Assembly (NCBI GenBank): GCA_030593075.1
Contig: JAUVHW010000011.1
Location: 1-32,639, forward strand
DNA: 32,639 nucleotides
DNA from: Ardenticatenales bacterium
Lineage (GTDB): Bacteria; Chloroflexota; Anaerolineae; Promineifilales; UBA4811
Direction: 5' to 3'
Within the stretch, counting starts at the first letter, position 1. Every line of letters begins with the position of its first letter. A model generated the notes under the pieces. That model saw nothing but the letters and a program-made list of their open reading frames with translations. It was not told the DNA's origin and did no database searches. Shown here one piece after another: positions 2,559-30,304 of this stretch. A program made the position numbers and the translations under genes.

Positions 2559-4274
2559 CTAGCCGGTCTGTCCGGCGGCTAGATGAGCCAGGGCTTCAGG
2601 CTCTTCCATGTGGAGCTCACGCTTGTGAATCGCGGAGGGCCAGAAGCCTTCCGGCCGGACCAGCATCATCACGATCAACAACGCACCGTACATCATGAAC
2701 CGGTATTCGGCAAACTCCCGGAGCAGTTCGGGCAGTCCAACTAGAATGAGAGCTCCGACCATGGCACCGGGAAGGCTGCCGATTCCCCCCACGATGATCA
2801 AGCAGAGGACATTGATCGAGACTAGAAGCTGGAAGCTGTGGGGAAAGATCGAACTGAGCTTGCTGGCAAAGATCGCGCCGCTCAGGCCCGAGAAGCCAGC
2901 ACCGATGGCAAAGGCCAGCAACTTGGTCTTGACCAGGTTGATGCCCATCGCTTCCGCCACATCCTCGTCCTCTCGCATCGCCATCCATTGCCGGCCCAGG
3001 CGCGAGTCACGCAGCCGCCAAGAGACGAAAACAGCGAGCAGGCAGGCGAGGAGGATGACATAGTACAGTGACTCTGGTCTGACGAACTCAAAGCCGAGGA
3101 TGCGGGCTTTCGGAATCAGCAGGATACCCTGGGCACCTCCGATGTACGGAGCCAGGAAGTCTGAGAGAGCCAGGATGCGGATGATCTCGCCGAAGCCAAG
3201 GGTGACAATCGCCAGGTAGTCGCCACGCATTCGCAGCACCGGGATCCCCAGGATGATACCCGCCGCTACAGCGGCAAGCACCGCGAAAGGCAAGGCGGCC
3301 CAAAACGAAAGACCGCCAACGCCCAAGTCGCTGTGGGAGGTGAGCACGCCCATCGCGTAGGCGCCGATGGCGAAAAAGGCCACATAGCCCAGGTCCAGCA
3401 GGCCGGCAAAGCCAACCACGATGTTTAGGCCGAGCCCCATCAGGATGTACAGGCCAATGTTGTCAATCACCTCCGATAGATAGGTCCGAAGGATGAAAGG
3501 CAGAACAAGGAGGAGCAGTACGCCGAGGGCGATCATGCCCCGCCGAAGGCGCTGCTGCTGCTCAGGCCCAAGCGTGCTCAAGCGCTGCTCCACTCGCTCC
3601 TGCTGGCCGCTCCAGGCGACATTCGACCCGGCAGCAACCAGGAACACCAGGCAGGCGCCGGGCACCAAGAGGCCCCTCGCTGCGAACATGAACCGCCTGA
3701 TGATCAGGCCAATCCCCCTGTTGCCCCAGGCCAGGATAATGATCTCGGACAGCAGCCCAATCAAGAAGACCGAGATCAGGCCGACCAGCAGCGGCCGCCC
3801 CAGCCGTGGGGGAAGCAGGTACACACCAGCCCCCACGAGCCCCAGCACGCCGGTCACTGCTGCCAGAATCAGAGAGCCGGCGATCTGACCTTGGCCAAAG
3901 GCCAGCAACTTCAGCAGGCCGGGCGACACGTTGATAAGGAACCGGCGAAGCAAGATCCCCCCCTCGGCGTCGGTCAACCCACCCGCGACCAACAACAGGA
4001 TGAGAGGCAAGCTGGAGATCAGGCCAAGCGCAAGACCACCCAGGAGCACTCTGCCTAGCTCCTCGCCGGCGCTCCGTCGGGCGGCCAAGTATCCGCCGCC
4101 AATGGCCGCTCCAAACAGAAAGACCTGCCCGAGAGAGAACACTCCACCTATGATGTCGCGTTCGCTGAATCTCTCCACCATGCCAATCAGGCTCAGCGAC
4201 AAGGCAACGACGCCTGCAAGGAGCCCCAGCCGGACGGTCGCCCCCCAGTCGAGACGAGTCTGAGTTCCCATCAT
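2559..4274 (-). CDS. livM: Branched-chain amino acid ABC transporter permease LivM with a ~250-aa extra membrane N-terminal region
   Basis: C-terminal half GLGLNIVVGFAGLLDLGYVAFFAIGAYAMGVLTS...RMRGDYLAIVTLGFGEIIRIL is LivM; N-terminal ~250 aa hydrophobic and additional. Confidence 0.92.
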   Translation of the reverse strand: MMGTQTRLDWGATVRLGLLAGVVALSLSLIGMVERFSERDIIGGVFSLGQVFLFGAAIGGGYLAARRSAGEELGRVLLGGLALGLISSLPLILLLVAGGLTDAEGGILLRRFLINVSPGLLKLLAFGQGQIAGSLILAAVTGVLGLVGAGVYLLPPRLGRPLLVGLISVFLIGLLSEIIILAWGNRGIGLIIRRFMFAARGLLVPGACLVFLVAAGSNVAWSGQQERVEQRLSTLGPEQQQRLRRGMIALGVLLLLVLPFILRTYLSEVIDNIGLYILMGLGLNIVVGFAGLLDLGYVAFFAIGAYAMGVLTSHSDLGVGGLSFWAALPFAVLAAVAAGIILGIPVLRMRGDYLAIVTLGFGEIIRILALSDFLAPYIGGAQGILLIPKARILGFEFVRPESLYYVILLACLLAVFVSWRLRDSRLGRQWMAMREDEDVAEAMGINLVKTKLLAFAIGAGFSGLSGAIFASKLSSIFPHSFQLLVSINVLCLIIVGGIGSLPGAMVGALILVGLPELLREFAEYRFMMYGALLIVMMLVRPEGFWPSAIHKRELHMEEPEALAHLAAGQTG

Positions 4275-4279
4275 GCTCC

Positions 4280-5341
4280 TCAGGCTTTCTTCTCCGCAAG
4301 CCGCTCACCCAGGATTCCTTGCGGCCGCACAATCAGCACCAGCACCAGCATAGTGAAGGCGATCACGTCCTTGAGTTGGTAGGCGGCCGGGATCCCCAAG
4401 CCTTCGAGGAAGAGGCTGGGCCCTATCGATTCGAACATCCCCAGGAACAGCCCACCCAGGGCAGCGCCCGGGACGCTGCCGATGCCCCCCAGCACAGCGG
4501 CCGTGAAGGCTTTGATACCCGGGAAGAAGCCCATGAAAAAGTGCACCTGCCGGAACAGGAGCGCGTAGAGAAGCCCGGCCGCCCCCGCCAGCGCCGCGCC
4601 AGTGGCAAACGTGATCACGATCACTCTGTCCACGTCAATCCCCATCAGCGCAGCGACCTGTTTGTCTTCGGCCACTGCCCGCATGGCCTTGCCTGTCTTG
4701 GTGCGCATCACAAAGATGTACAGACCGATGAGCAGAAGAACAGAGGCCACAATCACGACCACCTGCGTCCACAAGATCTCCAGGCCCCCAACGATCAGGG
4801 AGCCCTTTAACATCTCCACGGGGGGGAATGCCGTGATGCCGGAACCGTACAGGCCCCGGAAAAAATACTGCCAGAAAAAGGAAGCGCCAATAGCCGTGAT
4901 CAGGGGTACGAGGCGCGGAGCGTGTCTGAGGGGGCGATAGGCGACTCGCTCGGTCAGGACAGCGATACCCACGGATGTTGCCATGGCCACCAGGGCGACA
5001 ACGAGCAGCGACAGCACCGGATGGCTGTCCCAGAACGCGGTCTCGCTCAGAGGGATGGCGACAAAGACCGTGGCGGTGAAAATGCCCGACATGAAGAACT
5101 CGCCGTGAGCAAAGTTGATCATGAACAGAACGCCGTAGACCAGCGTATACCCGAGAGCGATAAGGGCGTAAAGACTGCCCTGAGCCACGCCAAAGACCAA
5201 GAAGTCCAGCCAATTCTCGGCAGAGTACGGATTGTTGAGAATCGTAGCCACAGTCCCCCACAGGACAGCCCCAAGTATCGCCGCCCGGAGCAGCCATAAC
5301 ACGACGCTGAGGGGGTCCAGGTTCTGCAATCGTTCACGCAT
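4280..5341 (-). CDS. livH: Branched-chain amino acid ABC transporter permease LivH
   Basis: GSLYALIALGYTLVYGVLFMINFAHGEFFMSG...ERVAYRPLRHAPRLVPLITAIGASFF; operon context. Confidence 0.94.
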   Translation of the reverse strand: MRERLQNLDPLSVVLWLLRAAILGAVLWGTVATILNNPYSAENWLDFLVFGVAQGSLYALIALGYTLVYGVLFMINFAHGEFFMSGIFTATVFVAIPLSETAFWDSHPVLSLLVVALVAMATSVGIAVLTERVAYRPLRHAPRLVPLITAIGASFFWQYFFRGLYGSGITAFPPVEMLKGSLIVGGLEILWTQVVVIVASVLLLIGLYIFVMRTKTGKAMRAVAEDKQVAALMGIDVDRVIVITFATGAALAGAAGLLYALLFRQVHFFMGFFPGIKAFTAAVLGGIGSVPGAALGGLFLGMFESIGPSLFLEGLGIPAAYQLKDVIAFTMLVLVLIVRPQGILGERLAEKKA

Positions 5342-5473
5342 GCTCTCTTCCGTCCAGAGGTGTCTTCACGGAACGCCAGGCCGCTTGCGAGAAGCTCACC
5401 ATTCCAGCGCCCTGCCGCAAGCAGCCCCGTGTAGGTAGCGCTCCAGCACGTAGCTCTCTGCTCCGCAAGTGAC

Positions 5474-5517
5474 GGGGACGAGCCTGGGCGGCGCCAAGCG
5501 AGCCCAGGCTCATCCCC
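5474..5517 (-). terminator. Strong intercistronic hairpin between livK-type SBP and livH (no U-tract)
   Basis: GGGGACGAGCCTGGGC / GCCCAGGCTCATCCCC inverted repeat, 16-nt arms with one mismatch, 12-nt loop. Confidence 0.5.
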
Positions 5518-5566
5518 AGAGGTGACGTTAGCCGATAGGGTGTCTACAGACAGACGCTAGAGATCA

Positions 5567-6772
5567 CTAATCGGCCGTCCAGACCGGCACGTACTCGCCT
5601 TCCTGGATCTGGTTGACCGTGATCAGTGGGTCAGCGCAGTCTCCGTACTGGTTGCAGGTCAGTGTTCCCGTGATGCCCTCGTGGTCCTTGGTGGCATAGA
5701 GCGCGTCGCGCAACGCCTGGCGGCCGATGTGCAGCGTCCCATCCTCATCTTGTACGGCGACCTTCTCGATCGCGGCGATCAGCATCATCGTCGCATCGTA
5801 CGCGTGAGCGTGGAAGGCGCTCAACGGATCTTCGCCGTATTTTGTCCTGTGCTTCTGGAGGAATGCCTGGCCAAGGGGATTGTCGAAGGCGAGATCGGGA
5901 CCCGAGATGTACATCCCGTTGGCCTCGTCGCCAGCAGCTGCGATAAAGTCAGGTGAGATCATCCCGTCAGCGCCAGACAGAATCGTGTCCTCCAGCCCGG
6001 AGATCTCCTTGGCCTGCACGGTGATGTGCCCGCCCTCGGCGATAAAGATCGGGTAGTAGATCAGCTCAGGGCCGGTGACCGCGATCTTGGTGAGCACCGG
6101 ACGCATGTCAGTATCACCAGTATTGATGGCCTCCTGAGTGGTGATCTCACCGCCCAGCTCGACGAACTTGTCAGCGAACACCTGCTGCAGCTGGTCAGCG
6201 TAGGGGCTGCCATCGTGGATGGTGGCGGCCTTGCGCACGCCGAGCTCGTTGTACGCAAAGTTGGCCATCGCAGCGCCCTGGATGTTGTCGTTGTGGCAAC
6301 TGCGCAGGTAACCCGGGTTCCAGGTCTTGTCCGGATTGGTCAACGATGGGGCCGTATTGGAGGGGGAGATCAGCACCATGCCAGCGTCGGAAGCGATCTT
6401 TGACGCGGGTTCTCCTGCGCTGGAGCAGTTGGTGCCGACAATCCCAATCAGGCTGGGGTCAGAGGTCAGCTTGGTGACGGCCGTCTGGCCACCCTCGGCG
6501 CTGCACAGCGAGTCCTCCCCCACCAGCTCGATCGCGTGATCGAGGACTTTGCCTTTGTCTTCAGCGGCGATCTCGACACCACGCTGGGAGTCCACACCCA
6601 GTGTCTCGTTCGGCCCGCTGATCACCAGGGCCCAGCCAATGCGGACCGGGTCCTCCGGGGCGATGTCCACGCAGCCGATAGCGTCCTCGCACTCGAACTG
6701 GGGACCCCCACAGGCTGTCAAGAGCATGACAGCCAGGATACTGACTATTATCAAAGCACTGATTTTCTTCAT
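5567..6772 (-). CDS. Branched-chain amino acid ABC transporter substrate-binding lipoprotein (LivK-type)
   Basis: MKKISALIIVSILAVMLLTACGGP lipoprotein signal; VRIGWALVISGPNETLGVDSQRGVEIAAED...; upstream of livH; SD GGAGGAG. Confidence 0.93.
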   Translation of the reverse strand: MKKISALIIVSILAVMLLTACGGPQFECEDAIGCVDIAPEDPVRIGWALVISGPNETLGVDSQRGVEIAAEDKGKVLDHAIELVGEDSLCSAEGGQTAVTKLTSDPSLIGIVGTNCSSAGEPASKIASDAGMVLISPSNTAPSLTNPDKTWNPGYLRSCHNDNIQGAAMANFAYNELGVRKAATIHDGSPYADQLQQVFADKFVELGGEITTQEAINTGDTDMRPVLTKIAVTGPELIYYPIFIAEGGHITVQAKEISGLEDTILSGADGMISPDFIAAAGDEANGMYISGPDLAFDNPLGQAFLQKHRTKYGEDPLSAFHAHAYDATMMLIAAIEKVAVQDEDGTLHIGRQALRDALYATKDHEGITGTLTCNQYGDCADPLITVNQIQEGEYVPVWTAD

Positions 6773-6801
6773 CTCTTGCTCTCCTCCATGGAATAGCGGT
6801 A

Positions 6802-6830
6802 CTATTAAACAGTGTTGCGATTGGAATCAA
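6802..6830 (-). promoter_or_regulatory. Putative sigma70-type promoter of the liv operon
   Basis: Minus strand TTGATT (6830-6825), 17-nt spacer, TAATAG (6807-6802), just upstream of the SBP start. Confidence 0.4.
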
Positions 6831-7179
6831 CCACGAGACAACCTACGTAGCACGTGTTTCTTGCAGGCACCTCCTTATCCGATCAGACTCCGGACCACCA
6901 ACTACCCACTCAAATGGCCGGCGCAAAACCCGCACCCAGGTTCTGCCTGGCCGCGACGAGCCAACCGGCACGATTCTAGCAAAGTCTGCGAATTTGGCAA
7001 ACCGCGCCGGCAGCTGCGGGAGAGGGTCCGCCGCACACTAGCGGCCACAGACTTGGCCGGCAGCAGCCAAGACAGACGCGCCGGCAGCTAGAACATACCT
7101 CACGAGCCGCCCGGTCACCCGCGCAGCGCCGCCCGACAGACCCTCGAATCGCGCGTGTGTGCTGCGCACATGCCGGGCA

Positions 7180-8337
7180 TCAGATCACATTATACTCCAC
7201 CAGGCCCTCGCCGGTCCGGAAGCGCTCTATGGAGAGACCGCTCACATCCAGAGTGCGGGCGGCGCCGTCCAGGATTTCCTCTGCCAGCAGCAGGCCACAG
7301 ACGGGACCGTGCATAAAGCCGTGCCCGCTGAACCCGTTGATGCAATAAAAGCCCTCCAGCTCCGGCACCCGACCGAGAATCGGATGGGCGTCCGGCGTGA
7401 CCTCGTACAACCCGGCCCAGCGGCTGAGGAGGCTAGCTTCTTCCAGGAGCGGCATCCGCTCCATGGCGGCTTCCAGATGCACCAGTTCCCATTCCGAGTC
7501 GACCACCTGGCTGAATCCCGGCGATTCGTCAGGGTTGGACATGCCGGTGAGAATGCCCTCCCCCTCGCGGTGGAAGTAGAGCGATTGGGCAAAGTCAATC
7601 ACAAACGGCAGATCGGGCGGGACCTGAGGGAGCGGCGCGGTGACCACTATCTGCCGCCTCACCGGCAGCACCGGGATCTCCAGGCCGGCCATCTCCCCAA
7701 CCGCGCCCGCCCAAGGCCCGGCCGCGTTGACCACCTGCCGGGTGGAGATCACTCCCTGCGCCGTTTCTACACCCGCTACCTTGCCGCTCGCCGCGCGAAT
7801 CCCGATCACCTCTGCGTCACCGATCAGCCGGGCTCCCAGGCGCCGTGCCCCATTAACGTACCCCTGGGCCACGCTGTTGGGGTCGGCCAGCCCGTCGCCG
7901 GCGTGCCAGGAGGCCCCAAGGATGCCGTCACTGTTGATCAGCGGCACCATGGCGGCCGCATCACGAGCCGGCAGCCACTCAGAATCGACCCCTAGCCGGT
8001 TCTGAAGGGCGATGTTCCGCTGGAACTCGGCCCGGTTCTCGTCGCTGGACGCCAGCATCAGATAGCCGACCCAGCGGAGATCAATCGGCTGGTCCAGCTC
8101 CTCCTGGAACCGCTCCAGCATAGGCAGGCTGAGCTGGGAGAGACGGACGTTGATTTCGGTGCTGAACTGATACCGGATGCCGCCGGCGCAGCGGCCGGTA
8201 GCCCCCTGCCCAAAGAAGGTCTCGCGCTCCAGCAGCACCACGTCCCTACAGCCCCGTAGAGTCAGATGGTAGGCGGTGCTGGCGCCCATCACCCCACCCC
8301 CGATTATGACAACCTCGGCCGTGCTGGGGAGAGCCAT
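7180..8337 (-). CDS. FAD-dependent oxidoreductase, DAO family (sarcosine oxidase beta / glycine oxidase-like)
   Basis: N-terminal VVIIGGGVMGASTAYHLTLRG dinucleotide-binding motif; VVNAAGPWAGAVGEMAG; C-terminal GFYCINGFSGHGFMHGPVCGLLLAEEI. Confidence 0.9.
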   Translation of the reverse strand: MALPSTAEVVIIGGGVMGASTAYHLTLRGCRDVVLLERETFFGQGATGRCAGGIRYQFSTEINVRLSQLSLPMLERFQEELDQPIDLRWVGYLMLASSDENRAEFQRNIALQNRLGVDSEWLPARDAAAMVPLINSDGILGASWHAGDGLADPNSVAQGYVNGARRLGARLIGDAEVIGIRAASGKVAGVETAQGVISTRQVVNAAGPWAGAVGEMAGLEIPVLPVRRQIVVTAPLPQVPPDLPFVIDFAQSLYFHREGEGILTGMSNPDESPGFSQVVDSEWELVHLEAAMERMPLLEEASLLSRWAGLYEVTPDAHPILGRVPELEGFYCINGFSGHGFMHGPVCGLLLAEEILDGAARTLDVSGLSIERFRTGEGLVEYNVI

Positions 8338-22662: not shown

Positions 22663-22690
22663 TTGACGCGGCAGCCTGTTTTCATACAAT
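22663..22690 (+). promoter_or_regulatory. Putative sigma70 promoter of the SF1-like gene
   Basis: TTGACG - 16 nt - TACAAT, 30 nt before GTG at 22720. Confidence 0.6.
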
Positions 22691-22719: not shown

Positions 22720-24864
22720 GTGCCACATACGGGGACTCTCACACCGGATCAGAGGGCCATCGTCGAGGCTGCCAGCGACCAGGGGCAGAGCGTTTTCGTT
22801 CATGGCCCCGCAGGAACCGGCAAGACGACCGCGCTGCAGCAACGGCTCACTGCACTGCTGGCGGCCGGAATCCCATCGTACTCGGTGCTGACGCTGTTGC
22901 CCGACCCTGGCAGCGCCGAGGGGTATCACGCGGCTCTAGGAGAGGCGCAGCTAGGACCCTACTCTGATCCGCACCTTACTACTCTGGCCGGGCTGGCCCG
23001 AGAGGTGGTTACTCTGCTGTGGCCCCTGGTGGCGCGGCCGGCGGGTTTTGCAGCTCCTCACAAACCGCCCGTGCTTCTGAGCTACGATCTGGCTCAGGTA
23101 CAGATGCGACGGGTTATCGCTCCTATGTTGGCGAAAGGCGCCTTTCAGGGATTGCGCATGCGGCCCCAGCAGGTCCTCTCGCAGCTGCTTGACAACCTCA
23201 ACCGTGCAGCCCTCAACGGCTTGACGCTGGACGAGATGGAAGAACGACTTGTCCGCACCTGGAACGGCCACGCGTCCCACATTCGCTACTTTCGGCAGGC
23301 GGCCGACGCTGCCCGGCGTTTTCGCCAGAGCTGCCTGGAGGCCAACCTGCTCGACCTCTCCCTGGTGATCGACGTCTTTCATCGGCACATCGTCCACGAT
23401 AGTACCCTCTCTCAGTACTTGGCCGAACGATTCCGGCACTTGCTGGTGGACAACCTGGAAGAGATGCCGCCGGTCGGCATCCAGTTCCTCCAGGGGATGC
23501 TGCCCGGAGCAGACTCGGCTGTCCTGATCTACGACGAGGGCGGCGGGTACCGGCGATATCTGGCGGCCGACCCACAGAGTGGTTGGGCGCTGCGCAAAGA
23601 CTGTGACCGTACCCTGGCCATGCCACGAAGCCTGGTCTCAGGTGCTTGCATGGAGGCGCTGGCGAGGCTTGTACAGAGGCGGCTTGGCGGTCCGGCCGGG
23701 TTGACCTACTCTGAGGCGGCCGAGGCGGTAACCCAGGTCATCAAGCCCCGCTACCGGCAGGAGATGATTCGGGAAGTGGTAAGCCTGGCCGAGTCGCTGA
23801 TCCCCAGCGCAACCTCGTCAGATCAGATCGCGATGGTGGCCCCGTACCTGGACGGCGCGCTGCTCCACAGTCTGACGACCGGTCTGACCAATGCCAACAT
23901 CCCTTTCCGGCTGCTCCGCCGTCGCAGCAGCCTGCGGGATGAGCCCTTGGTCCGGGCTTGGCTGACGTTGGCAGCGTTGGCCCATCCAGACTGGACCGTC
24001 GCTCCCTCCGCGTATGAGGTAGCCGAAGCCTTGGCCCTGGCGGTGGGGCAGCTGGACTGGCCGCGCGCCCGGCTAGCCGCCCGGAGGTTGTATGACAACT
24101 CGACGCACGGCCTGCGGCCCACAGACAACCTGACAGACACGGACAAAGCGCGCTTGGGGATGCCGGTGGTGGAGCGGATCGGAGAGCTTCAGGGATGGTT
24201 GGACCGGTCGGTCGGAACCCAACCGCTCGACCACTTCCTGGGTCACCTGTTCAGCGACTTGTTGAGTACACGTCGCTTCCAGCCGCAGCCTGACATCCGG
24301 GCTGCAGCGGTGTGCGACTGGCTCGTCAACGCGGCCCGCCGGTTCCACCGTGCGGCGGCCGCGCTGGGGATGGACGATCCGCACCGTGAGGGGCAGGAAT
24401 TCATCGCCAGCATCCGTGACGGCCTGGTGACTGCTATTCCGGCTCCCGAGCTGACGGCCTCGCAGGCAGGCGAAGCCTTGTCGGACACACCTGTAATCGT
24501 GGCCACCGTGTACGCGTACTTGCTTTCAGGGCCAGCGGTTCAGTACCAGGTCTGGTTGGAGGCAGGAGCAACCGGCTGGTGGGAGATTCCGCGCCAACCA
24601 CTAAGCAACGCCTTTGTGCTCACGCCGCACTGGGACCCGACGCGGCAGTGGACCGAGGCGGACAGCTTTGCGGTCCGCAACGAACTGCTAGCCGGGCTGG
24701 TGCGCGGCCTCTGTTCCCGGTGCAGCAAGGGCATTGTGCTGGCCTCCTCCGAACTAGACCGGCGCGGAGAGCGGCAGGATGGCCCGCTCTGGCGGGCTCT
24801 CGCGCCGCTGCAGTCGTTATGGAAACCCAGGGCCGCGTTTGACAGCGCCCCAGCGGTGTGGTAA
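22720..24864 (+). CDS. UvrD/AddA-like SF1 ATPase with degenerate helicase motifs
   Basis: Q-motif LTPDQRAIVEA and Walker A HGPAGTGKTTAL; degenerate motif II LLVDNLEEM; motif III/V/VI positions diverged (LIYDEGGGYRRY, VIVATVYAYLLSG, RNELLAGLVRGLCSRCSKGIVLASSELDRRGER). Confidence 0.72.
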   Translation: MPHTGTLTPDQRAIVEAASDQGQSVFVHGPAGTGKTTALQQRLTALLAAGIPSYSVLTLLPDPGSAEGYHAALGEAQLGPYSDPHLTTLAGLAREVVTLLWPLVARPAGFAAPHKPPVLLSYDLAQVQMRRVIAPMLAKGAFQGLRMRPQQVLSQLLDNLNRAALNGLTLDEMEERLVRTWNGHASHIRYFRQAADAARRFRQSCLEANLLDLSLVIDVFHRHIVHDSTLSQYLAERFRHLLVDNLEEMPPVGIQFLQGMLPGADSAVLIYDEGGGYRRYLAADPQSGWALRKDCDRTLAMPRSLVSGACMEALARLVQRRLGGPAGLTYSEAAEAVTQVIKPRYRQEMIREVVSLAESLIPSATSSDQIAMVAPYLDGALLHSLTTGLTNANIPFRLLRRRSSLRDEPLVRAWLTLAALAHPDWTVAPSAYEVAEALALAVGQLDWPRARLAARRLYDNSTHGLRPTDNLTDTDKARLGMPVVERIGELQGWLDRSVGTQPLDHFLGHLFSDLLSTRRFQPQPDIRAAAVCDWLVNAARRFHRAAAALGMDDPHREGQEFIASIRDGLVTAIPAPELTASQAGEALSDTPVIVATVYAYLLSGPAVQYQVWLEAGATGWWEIPRQPLSNAFVLTPHWDPTRQWTEADSFAVRNELLAGLVRGLCSRCSKGIVLASSELDRRGERQDGPLWRALAPLQSLWKPRAAFDSAPAVW

Positions 24865-24867
24865 GCT
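24839..24867 (+). promoter_or_regulatory. Putative promoter upstream of the 24945 ORF
   Basis: TTGACA - 17 nt - TAAGCT. Confidence 0.35.
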
Positions 24868-24944
24868 ACGCCCGTCCGCTCAGGGTAACGGGTCCTACAC
24901 CACCCCCTTCCTTCCCACCGTAAACACCCAAGCGGAGGCTTTCT

Positions 24945-25280
24945 GTGGAAAGGAATGAGAAGAGCGGGCTGCTCTATCCCAACAAGCTGGCGCGTGTCTA
25001 TCTGGAAGCTATGGAGGAGCTAGCAGGCCCCAATGGCCTAGCAGCTGCCTTCCGAACAGCAGGACTTGCCGAGCTGACCAACGACTATCCCCCCTGCAAT
25101 CTGGACAAGGCGTTCGATTCGTTAGCCTACTCCACGGTAAACGGCGCGTTGGATGAGATCTACGGTCCAGACGGCGGCCGCGCTCTTGGGCTGCGGGAAG
25201 GCCGCGAGTCGTTTGCGCCTGGCCGGAAGGGCTTTGGCCCACCGGCAGGCGTGGGAGGCGCGGCTGCCGGTGCGTACTGA
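24945..25280 (+). CDS. Short protein resembling the N-terminus of Chloroflexi 4-vinyl-reductase-like/V4R proteins; possibly truncated
   Basis: GTG start with SD GGAGG at 6-nt spacing; MERNEKSGLLYPNKLARVYLEAMEELAGPNGLAAAF...YPPCNLDKAFD...YGPDGGRALGLREGR; family recalled from memory, not searched. Confidence 0.45.
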   Translation: MERNEKSGLLYPNKLARVYLEAMEELAGPNGLAAAFRTAGLAELTNDYPPCNLDKAFDSLAYSTVNGALDEIYGPDGGRALGLREGRESFAPGRKGFGPPAGVGGAAAGAY

Positions 25281-25343
25281 GGCCTCGCCAGCGGTGGCAC
25301 AGGACTACTCACATCATCGCCAGGACCGTGCAGGATTCGCAAC

Positions 25344-26099: not shown

Positions 26100-26115
26100 A
26101 TGAGGAACTGGGAAT

Positions 26116-26153
26116 GACCAATGACCACGCAGGCGGTCATTGGTCGTTTTTTT
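26116..26153 (+). terminator. Perfect intrinsic-terminator-like hairpin with T-tract
   Basis: GACCAATGACC acgcaggc GGTCATTGGTC GTTTTTTT; 11-bp perfect stem. Confidence 0.85.
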
Positions 26154-26158
26154 GTGTC

Positions 26159-29100
26159 ATGAAAGCACTCCGCCGGTTCATTCCCGATCTTTTTGCGGCA
26201 GGAATACTGCTCCTGCTGCCTCTGGTGATGTTCTGGCCAGTGACCTGCGGAGATCGCACGCTGATTCCGGCTGACAATCTCTTCCAGTGGGCACCCTGGA
26301 AGTCATACGCCGAGGAGTACGGGGTAGAGACCCCCCACAACGAACTGCTCAGCGATCTGCTGCTGGAGAACTATGCGTGGAAGCGATTCATTCTGCAGTC
26401 GCTGCGCGAACGCCAGATTCCTCTATGGAGCCCCTACCTGTTTGCCGGAGCCCCCTTTCTGGCGAGCGGACAGCACTCGGCCCTCTACCCCTTTGGCCTG
26501 ATCTACCTGATGCTGCCGCTGGAGCGTGCGTACGGCGTGTTCACCGTCAGCCAACTCCTACTGGCAGGTATCTTTGCCTACCTGTTCGCGCGCGTTCTGG
26601 GGATCAAGAGGCCTGGCTCGCTGCTGGCGGCGATTACCTTTCAGCTGTGCGGCTACGTCTTGGTCAGCGTGGACTTTCCCATGATGCTCGCCGGATCCGC
26701 CTGGCTTCCTTTCCTGCTCACCATGATCGAGTTGGTGATTCGCCAGCAGCCGGCGCCGGGAGGGCGGCCAGCTACGGTACCGTGGGTCGTTCTGGGCGCG
26801 GCCGGGCTGGGCATGCAATTGCTGGCCGGGCATGGCGAGAACACCTACCTCACCCTTTTCGTGATGGGGCTCTACGCCGCCTGGCGACTAGGCGCTGAGA
26901 CCACCCGACGGAGGACCGGCGGCGATTCGGACCGGCCGCTGCCGCGCACCCACCCGAGTCGCGCTCTGCTGCGCCCCGCCCTCTGGCTCACAGTCATGGT
27001 CTTGCTGGGGATAGGACTGGGCTCCGTTCAGTTCATTCCTTTCATCGAGCTCGTCCAGCACAATTTCCGCGAGGGGGCGGTTTCGCTGGAGGAGGTGCTC
27101 AGCTGGGCGTATCCCTGGAGACGGCTGATCGCATTCCTGGCCCCCAACTTTTTTGGCAACCCCAGCCACCACAGCTACTTTGACCTGTTCAGCTGGCGGA
27201 CAGAGGCGGTGACGGCCAATGTCTATGGAGACCCGATCTTCAAGATAGACTGGGGTATCAAGAACTATGTGGAAGGCGGGGCCTACCTCGGCATCCTTCC
27301 TCTCCTGCTGGCAGCGATAGCAGTGCTGGGCAGCCTGCAGCGACGGGGACGCCGTTCCAGGACATCGGTATGGTTCTTTGCCCTGCTCGCTTTGGCCTCG
27401 CTCAGTTTCATTTTCCCCACCGGCGCCTATGCCATCATCCACTCCATACCGGTGATCAACCAATCCCACTCACCCTTCCGCTGGGTATTCCCGCTCTCGC
27501 TGAGTGCGGCAGTCCTGGCAGGATGGGGTTTCGAGGAGCTAGCTGCAGCTGAATCCAGCAGCCGGAAGGTTAGATGGCTGTCTCTGCTGGCTCTGGTGGG
27601 CGGCCTAGCAGGGATGGTCGGGCTGGGCGTGAGCCGGGTCCTCTTTGACCGGTTGGAGCCGCTGCTGGAGACGGTTTTCCGCGGGTTAGCCAGAGCACCA
27701 GGGGCATTCTCTGACGTGCGCGCCTTCTACAGCTATGAGTTCCGCCAGTTGACGGTTACCGCCCTGATGCTGCTGGCGGCCGGACTCGTGCTGTGCCTCG
27801 CCCGCCGGGCGGTGGTCGTCAGAGGCCGGCCGCTCTGGCAGCCGCTGGCCCTGGGGCTGGTGGCTGTGGACCTGGCGTTGGCTACCTGGGCCTTTCACCC
27901 GGCGGCCGACCCCGCCCTTCTGGAGGTCAAGCCCGAGCTGATTCAGTTCCTCGAATCTCAGCCCGGTCACTGGCGGCTGACGACATTCAATCCGCATGGC
28001 GACAACCCGCTCCACGCCAACACCCCCTGGCTGTACGATTTGCAGGACGTGCGTGGATACGATTCCATCATCACGAGGCGGTACGTCGACTATATGAGGG
28101 CTATCGAACCTCAGGGCGAACTGCTCCACAACCGGGTTCAGCCGATCACGAATTGGCAGAGCCTGAACTCCCCACTGCTCGACCTCCTAAACACCAAGTA
28201 TGTGATTACTTCCGAGAGGCTGGCCCTACCCAAGTTGGCCTTGGTCTGGGAAGGGGAGGGGCTGCGGGTGTACGAGAACCTGGCCGTCGCCCCTCGTGCC
28301 TTTACCCTCCCACAGAGCTCAACGGTGATCGCGAGCGACCCGCTGGCGGCCATGAAAGAGTACGATCCACGCAACTATGTGGTCAGGGATCTGGAGCGCG
28401 GTGACCCTGGTCTTCCTGATACCCCGCATCCCGGCTCGCTCACGCCGGCGACCATTGCGCAGTACGGCTCTCAGGAGGTACTGGTTGACGCCCACTCTGA
28501 CGAACCATCCTGGCTCATATTGACGGACAGCTACTTCCCAGGCTGGAAGGCCTTCGTCAGGCCGCTGGGCGGTAAAGAAGCCGACGAGAAGGACGCCGAG
28601 ATCTTTCCGGTGGACGGCAACTTTCGCGGGGTGCGACTGGACCCGGGCGCGTGGACAGTGCGCTTCAAGTACAGCCCGATGAGCTTCAAGGTGGGTCTCT
28701 TTGGCAGCTTCATGGCGGCCGTAGCGATGGTTTTCCTGGGCGCGGTCTGGCTGTGGCGCTACGCGTATCGCGAGAGCGCGGCCGACTCTACCGTCCGCCG
28801 GGTTGCCAAGAACAGCCTGGCACCCATGGCGCTCAGCCTGTTCAACCGGGGGATTGACTTTGCTTTCGCAATGCTGATGCTGCGCATCCTGGGGGCAGAG
28901 AACACAGGCAAATACTACGTTGCGATCGTCATTGCCGGCTGGTTCGAGATTCTGGCCAATTTCGGCCTCAACACGCTCCTGACCCGTGAGGTGTCAAAGG
29001 AGGGCGGCACCGCCAACCTCTACCTGGTGAACACTACCGTCCTGCGCCTGCTCACCAGCTTGGTCGCAGCGGTCCCCATCGCCCTTTACCTGCTCACTCT

Positions 29101-30304
29101 GGGTGCCAGCGCAGACCCGTTGGCCAGGGAGACCACGCTGGCACTCTGGCTGCTCATCATTGGTATGATTCCGGCTGGCGCCAACACCGGCCTTACGGCC
29201 CTCTTTTACGCCTACGAGCAAGCAGAAGTCCCAGCGGCCGTCTCGACCGTGGCCACCATCCTCAAGGTCACGCTCGGCACCCTGGTGCTGCTGCTGGGGA
29301 TGAGCTTTGTAGGTCTGGCGGGGGCGTCCATTGTGGTCAACCTGACGACAATGCTGCTGCTAGGCGCCATGGCATTCCGCACCTACTTTGTGCCACGATG
29401 GGAGCTGGACTGGAAACTGCAGTGGGATATGGTGACCGAGAGCTTTCCGCTGATGCTCAATCACTTGCTGGCGACTCTCTTTTTCAAGGTGGACGTATTG
29501 CTGCTGGAGAGGCTTGGCGGCAGCTCAGGGGTCAGCAGCGATACGGTGGTCGGCTGGTACCGGACAGGCTACATGTGGATAGACGCCCTGAACCTCTTAC
29601 CATCGCTCTTTACCTTCGCCGCCTTTCCGGTGCTGAGCCGGCAGGCCGAGGACCACCGGGAAACCATGGCAGAGACCTACCGGCTGGCGGTCAAGCTGCT
29701 GGTGATCATCGCTCTGCCCCTAGCAGTAGTGACGACTGGTGTCGCGCACTTTCTCATCCGGGTTCTGGGCGGAGCCGAGTACCTGCCCCACGGCGCTGTC
29801 GCGTTACAGATCATGGTCTGGTCCATTCCTGTGGGCTGGATCAACAGCATCACCAACTATGTGCTCATCGCCCTCGGCCGGCAGCGCCTGTTGACCCGAG
29901 CGTTCGTGATCGGGTTCGGGTTCAACCTGGTGGCCAACCTGCTGCTGGTGCCTCGCTATGGCTATCCTGCCACGGCCGCTATCGCCATCATCTCCGAAAT
30001 AGCGCTCCTGATCGCCTTCTACGTCTGTCTGCGGCCGGCCCTGGGCCCGGTTCCCTGGGCGGGCATGCTCTGGCGGCCGGTGGTGGCAGCCGCTATCATG
30101 GCGGCCGTCACCTGGGCTGGCTGGCGGCTCCACTGGGCGCTGGGCCTCGCGGCCGGGGGTGGTGTCTACATCGCGGCCTTGGCGCTGTTGGGCGTCTTGA
30201 CCTCGGCCGAGCGACAGGTCCTGACGGGTCTCCTGCCTGATCGGTTCAGGAGAGATGCCGGCGCCCAGCCAGTGTCTGAGAAAGAGGCAGGGCGCCTGGT
30301 CTGA
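26159..30304 (+). CDS. Fusion: YfhO-like GT-C membrane glycosyltransferase (N) + polysaccharide/MOP-type flippase (C, from about 28802)
   Basis: N part: [36 protein letters not shown]...[11 protein letters not shown] plus multi-TM; C part: [66 protein letters not shown]...; ORF track start 26114 lies next to the terminator stem, true start ambiguous. Confidence 0.88.
   Translation: [1381 protein letters not shown]

Follow-up and report, generated by a model that had tools for sequence, protein, structure and literature searches.

Three helicase-nucleases, RecBCD, AddAB, and AdnAB, are described for the resection of DNA ends in bacteria, and 88% of bacterial genomes have been credited with one of them (PMC6452273). 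In the first two of these systems, one subunit contains an SF1 helicase domain that has become inactive: RecC and AddB are missing most of the helicase motifs, and both search the 3' strand for Chi (PMC4824097). A simpler arrangement is also known, an operon found mostly in Clostridiales in which a UvrD-like helicase and a Cas4-like nuclease are encoded as unfused proteins and for which a role in repair has been proposed; the Cas4 nuclease is itself related to AddB and Dna2 (PMC5704561). In this study, we have analyzed a gene from the Chloroflexota, here called P, that encodes a helicase-like protein with altered motifs, together with the genes for an intact helicase (H) and a nuclease (N). 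P has lost motifs of the kind lost by AddB and RecC, it forms a genetic unit with an SF1 motor and a nuclease, and it resembles AddB; on these grounds, we think it probable, at roughly 70%, that P is the inactive-helicase subunit, comparable to RecC or to the N-terminal part of AddB, of a DNA end-resection complex of the AddAB/RecBCD type that is built from three polypeptides.

The window, that is, the whole stretch of 32,639 nucleotides that was analyzed, carries P on its forward strand at positions 22720 to 24864 (coding frame 22720-24861), where an open reading frame with a GTG start encodes 714 amino acids. As judged from its sequence, P is an SF1A UvrD-like protein whose motor motifs have been inactivated. 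Its membership of this superfamily is indicated by homology: the UvrD-helicase N-terminal domain (PF00580) was matched with an E value of 5.9e-9, which is over the curated Pfam cut-off, and was found in 38 of 39 family members. A phmmer search of the PDB with P as a single sequence gave no match; a profile of the 39 members matched UvrD and PcrA chains at about 1e-9, a mycobacterial UvrD/REP chain, taken to be AdnA, at 7e-4, AddB at 1.3e-3, and AddA at 0.06. When profiles were compared with hhalign, P aligned with its intact partner H over 560 columns (E = 8.6e-15). An AlphaFold model of P built from two sequences, those of the window and of locus L001, had a pLDDT of 34 and was discarded.

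The two N-terminal motifs that a sequence-only reading of this DNA had called canonical are both present in frame. The Q-motif region, LTPDQRAIVEA (amino acids 7-17; positions 22738-22770, forward strand, as for all features of P given here), keeps Q11 in 66 of 71 homologues, and in Walker A, GPAGTGKTT (amino acids 29-37; 22804-22830), G34 and K35 are each invariant (71/71) and residue 36 is always Thr or Ser (71/71). The same reading had described the Walker B region and motifs III and V as altered, and these alterations proved to be properties of the whole family. Walker B, or motif II, reads LLVDNLEEM (amino acids 241-249; 23440-23466), in which DNxEE replaces the canonical DExQD; D244, E247, and E248 are found in all 71 homologues and N245 in 70. 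Motif III, LIYDEGGGYRRYLAADP (amino acids 269-285; 23524-23574), has lost its Gln, the position being Gly, Ala, or Ser in the homologue alignment, and it retains D272 and G276 (each 71/71). The Arg position of motif IV is occupied by Val or Thr in most homologues, and the degenerate motif V region, TVYAYLLSGPAVQY (amino acids 596-609; 24505-24546), is unrecognizable as such, KGLEW being absent from the aligned homologues. In the hhalign alignment with H, VDNLEEMPP stands opposite EDEAQDSSP, YDEGGGYRRYLAADP opposite GDPNQ..FTxAxP, and the TVYA segment with which TVYAYLLSGPAVQY begins opposite VTTMHK of H motif V. For motif VI, the earlier description held only in part: the YVALTRA string is missing, but R667, which is found in all 71 homologues, appears to be the retained motif VI arginine; it lies within a C-terminal block, GLCSRCSKGIVLAS (24706-24747), in which G663 is also invariant (71/71) and C668 is present in 70 of 71 sequences. 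The register between R667 and the TRA arginine was set by eye from an ungapped C-terminal alignment, the hhalign local alignment ending before motif VI. P does not, then, have the complete catalytic motifs of an active SF1A enzyme; all that it has kept is Walker A and, probably, the arginine of motif VI.

The view that P is not simply decaying was borne out. The contig scan with the single P protein matched only L001, and a genome-wide search supplied the remaining members of a set of 71 homologues, with 25 to 100% identity to the window protein, all of which share the altered motifs; homologues with intact catalytic motifs beside a relaxed copy in the window, which would have spoken against this view, were not seen. 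The dN/dS ratios of close pairs were 0.04 to 0.20, and that between the window protein and its L001 homologue was 0.22 at a dS of about 1.2. Because the identical motif changes recur in 71 homologues and dN/dS is low, we conclude that P is under selection as an altered protein and that it is not a pseudogene. It was found in 54 of 59 relatives in a whole-genome search, as a rule in single copy. In a sample of 301 genomes of the phylum, P was present in 32, all of them in the window's class, and a census of that class found it in 131 of 199 genomes; no viral copies came up when viral sequences were scanned with the family alignment. A promoter, also claimed from the sequence, is represented upstream of P by a promoter-like site, TTGACG-16-TACAAT (22663-22690), which is a consensus match only (10/12; one site found against 0.3 expected from shuffles).

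The retention of Walker A, D244, and R667, combined with the replacement of the Walker B Glu by Asn, suggests that ATP is bound by P but not turned over. A different view of the same residues is that P is an active ATPase and a second motor, its catalytic Glu having moved to E247 or E248 of DNxEE, so that the complex would have two motors, as AdnAB or RecBCD does. The invariance (71/71) of the Walker A GK, D244, E247, E248, and the motif VI-like arginine suggests that a nucleotide chemistry has been selected, and such strict conservation exceeds the needs of a pure scaffold, which weighs to some extent against our own reading as well. However, the residue directly after the Walker B Asp is Asn in 70 of 71 homologues, and neither the Gln of motif III, nor the Arg of motif IV, nor the KGLEW of motif V has been kept; in SF1 helicases, these lost motifs couple hydrolysis to movement on DNA. 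We therefore regard a second motor as unlikely and retain the inactive-helicase subunit as the better interpretation of P.

H, a protein of about 760 amino acids with the Pfam domains UvrD-helicase and UvrD_C, keeps the Q-motif, GKT, DExQD, GDxxQ, the motif IV Arg, TxHxxKGLEW, and TRA wherever these are covered in 29 aligned sequences, and its best relatives in the PDB are PcrA, Rep, and UvrD, followed by AddA, AdnB, and RecB. N, of about 280 amino acids, belongs to Pfam PDDEXK_1, the PD-(D/E)XK nucleases, and keeps GxxxH (H57), E104, D121, D135-W-K137, and Q153xxxY157. It also has four invariant cysteines in the arrangement C...CX2CX5C, the Fe-S pattern of AddB; a cysteine set of this kind binds an Fe-S cluster in the AddB, Cas4, and Dna2 nucleases. 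Against the PDB, the N profile matched only AdnB-type chains, as judged from their UvrD/REP names and entries, and in profile comparison N aligned to the nuclease end of AddB. Neither P nor H contains a PDDEXK domain (Pfam).

The sequence-only reading had also called for the neighborhood of P to be examined, and it is here that the partners come to light. Gene order around P is variable in the window's order and P, H, and N are unlinked there; therefore, the operon argument rests on other families. Among 28 loci from distant members of the class, 23 have H 3' of P on the same strand, often with the two genes overlapping, and in 10 of the 23 H is followed by N; the order is invariably P-H-N. 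In three genomes (G190, G221, and G253), both the P-H and the H-N junctions are ATGA overlaps, a usual sign of coupled translation. Across the class census, 53 of the 128 genomes that carry both genes have H no more than 300 bp downstream of P, and 18 more have it within 4 kb on the same strand.

Inheritance of the three genes is equally concerted. The 32 P-bearing genomes of the phylum sample are exactly the 32 that bear H, and N was found in 28 of these and in no other genome of the 301. In the class census (n = 199), 128 genomes had both P and H, 66 had neither, 3 had P only, and 2 had H only; the corresponding Fisher P value, about 1e-46, is overstated, since the genomes share descent. At the threshold used, the H query did not detect PcrA, either in the window's genome or in the others; therefore, the co-occurrence is not a generic helicase signal. 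Genome G001, from the window's own family, has undergone joint loss or breakage of all three parts: P is absent at E <= 1e-10, with none near H, and on contig C30 (locus L168) a truncated N adjoins an H remnant that is in pieces, with in-frame stops and frame breaks. These lesions are unlikely to stem from a single sequencing error because several hits are spread over two genes. Taken together, the operon, the co-occurrence, and the joint loss place an intact SF1 motor, an inactive SF1 partner, and a PD-(D/E)XK nuclease in one genetic unit, and the genetic association of P, H, and N is strong. Against the end-resection reading stand three P-bearing genomes (G205, G311, and G353) in which N was not found, and the window's own genome, where a contig end truncates H and N is absent from the assembly.

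From this association, we infer a physical complex of P, H, and N with a role at double-strand breaks, in which P serves as a scaffold or scanner. In such a complex, H would unwind the duplex from a DNA end as a UvrD-like 3'-5' helicase, while the helicase-like fold of P, as in AddB and RecC, would act as an ATP-binding, nontranslocating clamp or channel for the unwound 3' strand, whose sequence it would probably check; N, as a separate Fe-S nuclease, would cut the strands. Of the roles previously suggested for P, namely, a nontranslocating ATPase, a nucleotide sensor, or a DNA-binding scaffold, the idea of a nontranslocating protein that binds nucleotide or DNA probably stands, but the context points to something more specific, a subunit of a helicase-nuclease complex.

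AddAB is among the closest known systems. AddB (RexB), like P, has a helicase-like N-terminal domain in which Walker A is retained and catalytic motifs are lost, and AddAB shares with the trio both the genetic link to an intact SF1 helicase and the Fe-S PD-(D/E)XK nuclease with its C...CX2CX5C cysteines. P aligned with AddB of the class at 94% probability (E = 1e-7) over 359 columns across the AddB helicase-like domain (hhalign), and the ADDB_N domain (PF21445) was matched in 5 of 39 family members; the AddB equivalog models of NCBIfam gave no match to P up to an E value of 1. Whereas AddB carries its Fe-S nuclease fused to the C terminus of the inactive helicase, the P chain terminates after the motif VI region and the nuclease is the product of a separate gene; likewise, AddA has a nuclease domain and H does not.

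RecBCD, like the trio, is encoded by three genes that include an inactive SF1 subunit, and the P-H-N order is like that of recC and then recB, if the nuclease domain of the latter were split off. Unlike RecBCD, however, the P-H-N operon encodes no RecD-like helicase; moreover, RecC has lost the Walker A motif that P keeps, and its Exonuc_V_gamma domain (PF04257) was not matched in P (Pfam). The mycobacterial AdnAB also has UvrD-like motors, and AdnB is the only type of chain that the N profile matched in the PDB, but AdnA and AdnB each combine a motor and a nuclease in one chain, an arrangement seen in neither P nor H, whereas the trio consists of three separate polypeptides with one dead motor. 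The UvrD and Cas4-like (pfam12705) operons resemble H and N in that an unfused helicase and nuclease form a predicted operon outside a defense context; no inactive-helicase partner has been described for these mostly clostridial operons (PMC5704561).

The P-H-N trio was not described in the literature that we searched, which lay largely outside the subscription journals. RecC (PF04257) was detected in none of the P-bearing genomes tested and in only 1 of 42 genomes of the class, G182, which lacks P, while 7 of 33 P-bearing genomes, along with two that lack P (G142 and G237), gave AddB_N matches above the cut-off, the AddB_N model being insensitive enough that an absent match should be read with caution. 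Since most of the P-bearing genomes tested matched neither RecC nor AddB_N, P-H-N becomes a candidate for the end-resection enzyme that is missing in the window's class, and it is often the sole recognizable system of this kind in the genomes that bear P. The notion that P merely replaces AddB is weakened by the finding that at least seven P-bearing genomes carry AddAB too. Full-length AddA and AddB genes were seen beside a P-H-N set in several genomes of the class (L138 and L139-L144). More tentatively, we can envision that P-H-N, with its three separate chains, joins RecBCD, AddAB, and AdnAB as a fourth helicase-nuclease for the resection of bacterial DNA ends and that much of the class relies on it as its principal enzyme of this sort. 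P would then be locked in an ATP-bound state by the Glu-to-Asn change in Walker B, with its Arg kept, and would read a Chi-like signal; this fuller proposal is possible but doubtful. The separation of dead helicase, motor, and nuclease into individual chains means that their roles can be tested singly, including the question of why AddB keeps Walker A.

P-H-N could instead be an antiphage defense or DNA-degrading system rather than part of housekeeping repair. Fusions of UvrD with Cas4-like nucleases are known in defense contexts (PMC5704561), GajB of the Gabija system is UvrD-like, and in PADLOC H and N match generic UvrD/GajB and Cas4 models; P itself has no specific match there (best E = 8e-5). 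The single copy of P, its presence in most members of the class, the lack of viral copies in our scan, and surroundings that are varied and, where examined, are not defense islands make this view improbable, and the two readings overlap to some degree, since RecBCD does both jobs. It is very improbable that P acts on its own as a nucleotide sensor or regulator with no connection to the processing of DNA ends, as might be supposed from its position between an FHA/VWA gene and genes for a response regulator and a histidine kinase in part of the window's order, given that those neighbors are confined to one family and that the concordance of P with H is class-wide (128 genomes against 5 discordant ones).

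In the window's genome (92.9% complete), H was found on contig C342, where the contig end cuts it after 349 amino acids; the part that remains has an intact Walker A, DEAQD, and GDPNQ. This assembly contains no N, which may lie beyond the break in C342, since an N remnant follows H in G001. The genes around P in the window, HypF upstream and a V4R remnant, a glycosyltransferase, and membrane/flippase genes downstream, are conserved only in the closest relative and were rejected as parts of the system. The V4R-domain gene (24858-25340, forward strand) is broken: an in-frame stop lies close to the start of the gene, and similarity extends only to 25235, short of the V4R domain; its counterpart after P in L001 (2199-2915) is intact and encodes 239 amino acids. 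Further downstream, an open reading frame of 1,396 amino acids (26114-30304, forward strand) looks like a fusion of a YfhO-type membrane protein with a flippase or polysaccharide transporter, and L001 has a similar long open reading frame (4139-8179).

In much of family f2 of the window's order, a gene for an FHA/VWA protein of 600 to 660 amino acids lies directly 5' of P on the same strand (L038, 5951-7936; L054, 9424-11382; L055, 10382-12310; and others), and a response regulator and a histidine kinase are often encoded downstream. These genes are specific to that lineage and were not accepted as partners of P. The window's genome also encodes, on contig C210 (L069, 2363-4489, forward strand), a UvrD-like helicase of 708 amino acids with intact motifs, whose N-terminal extension looks like a RelE/ParE-type domain.
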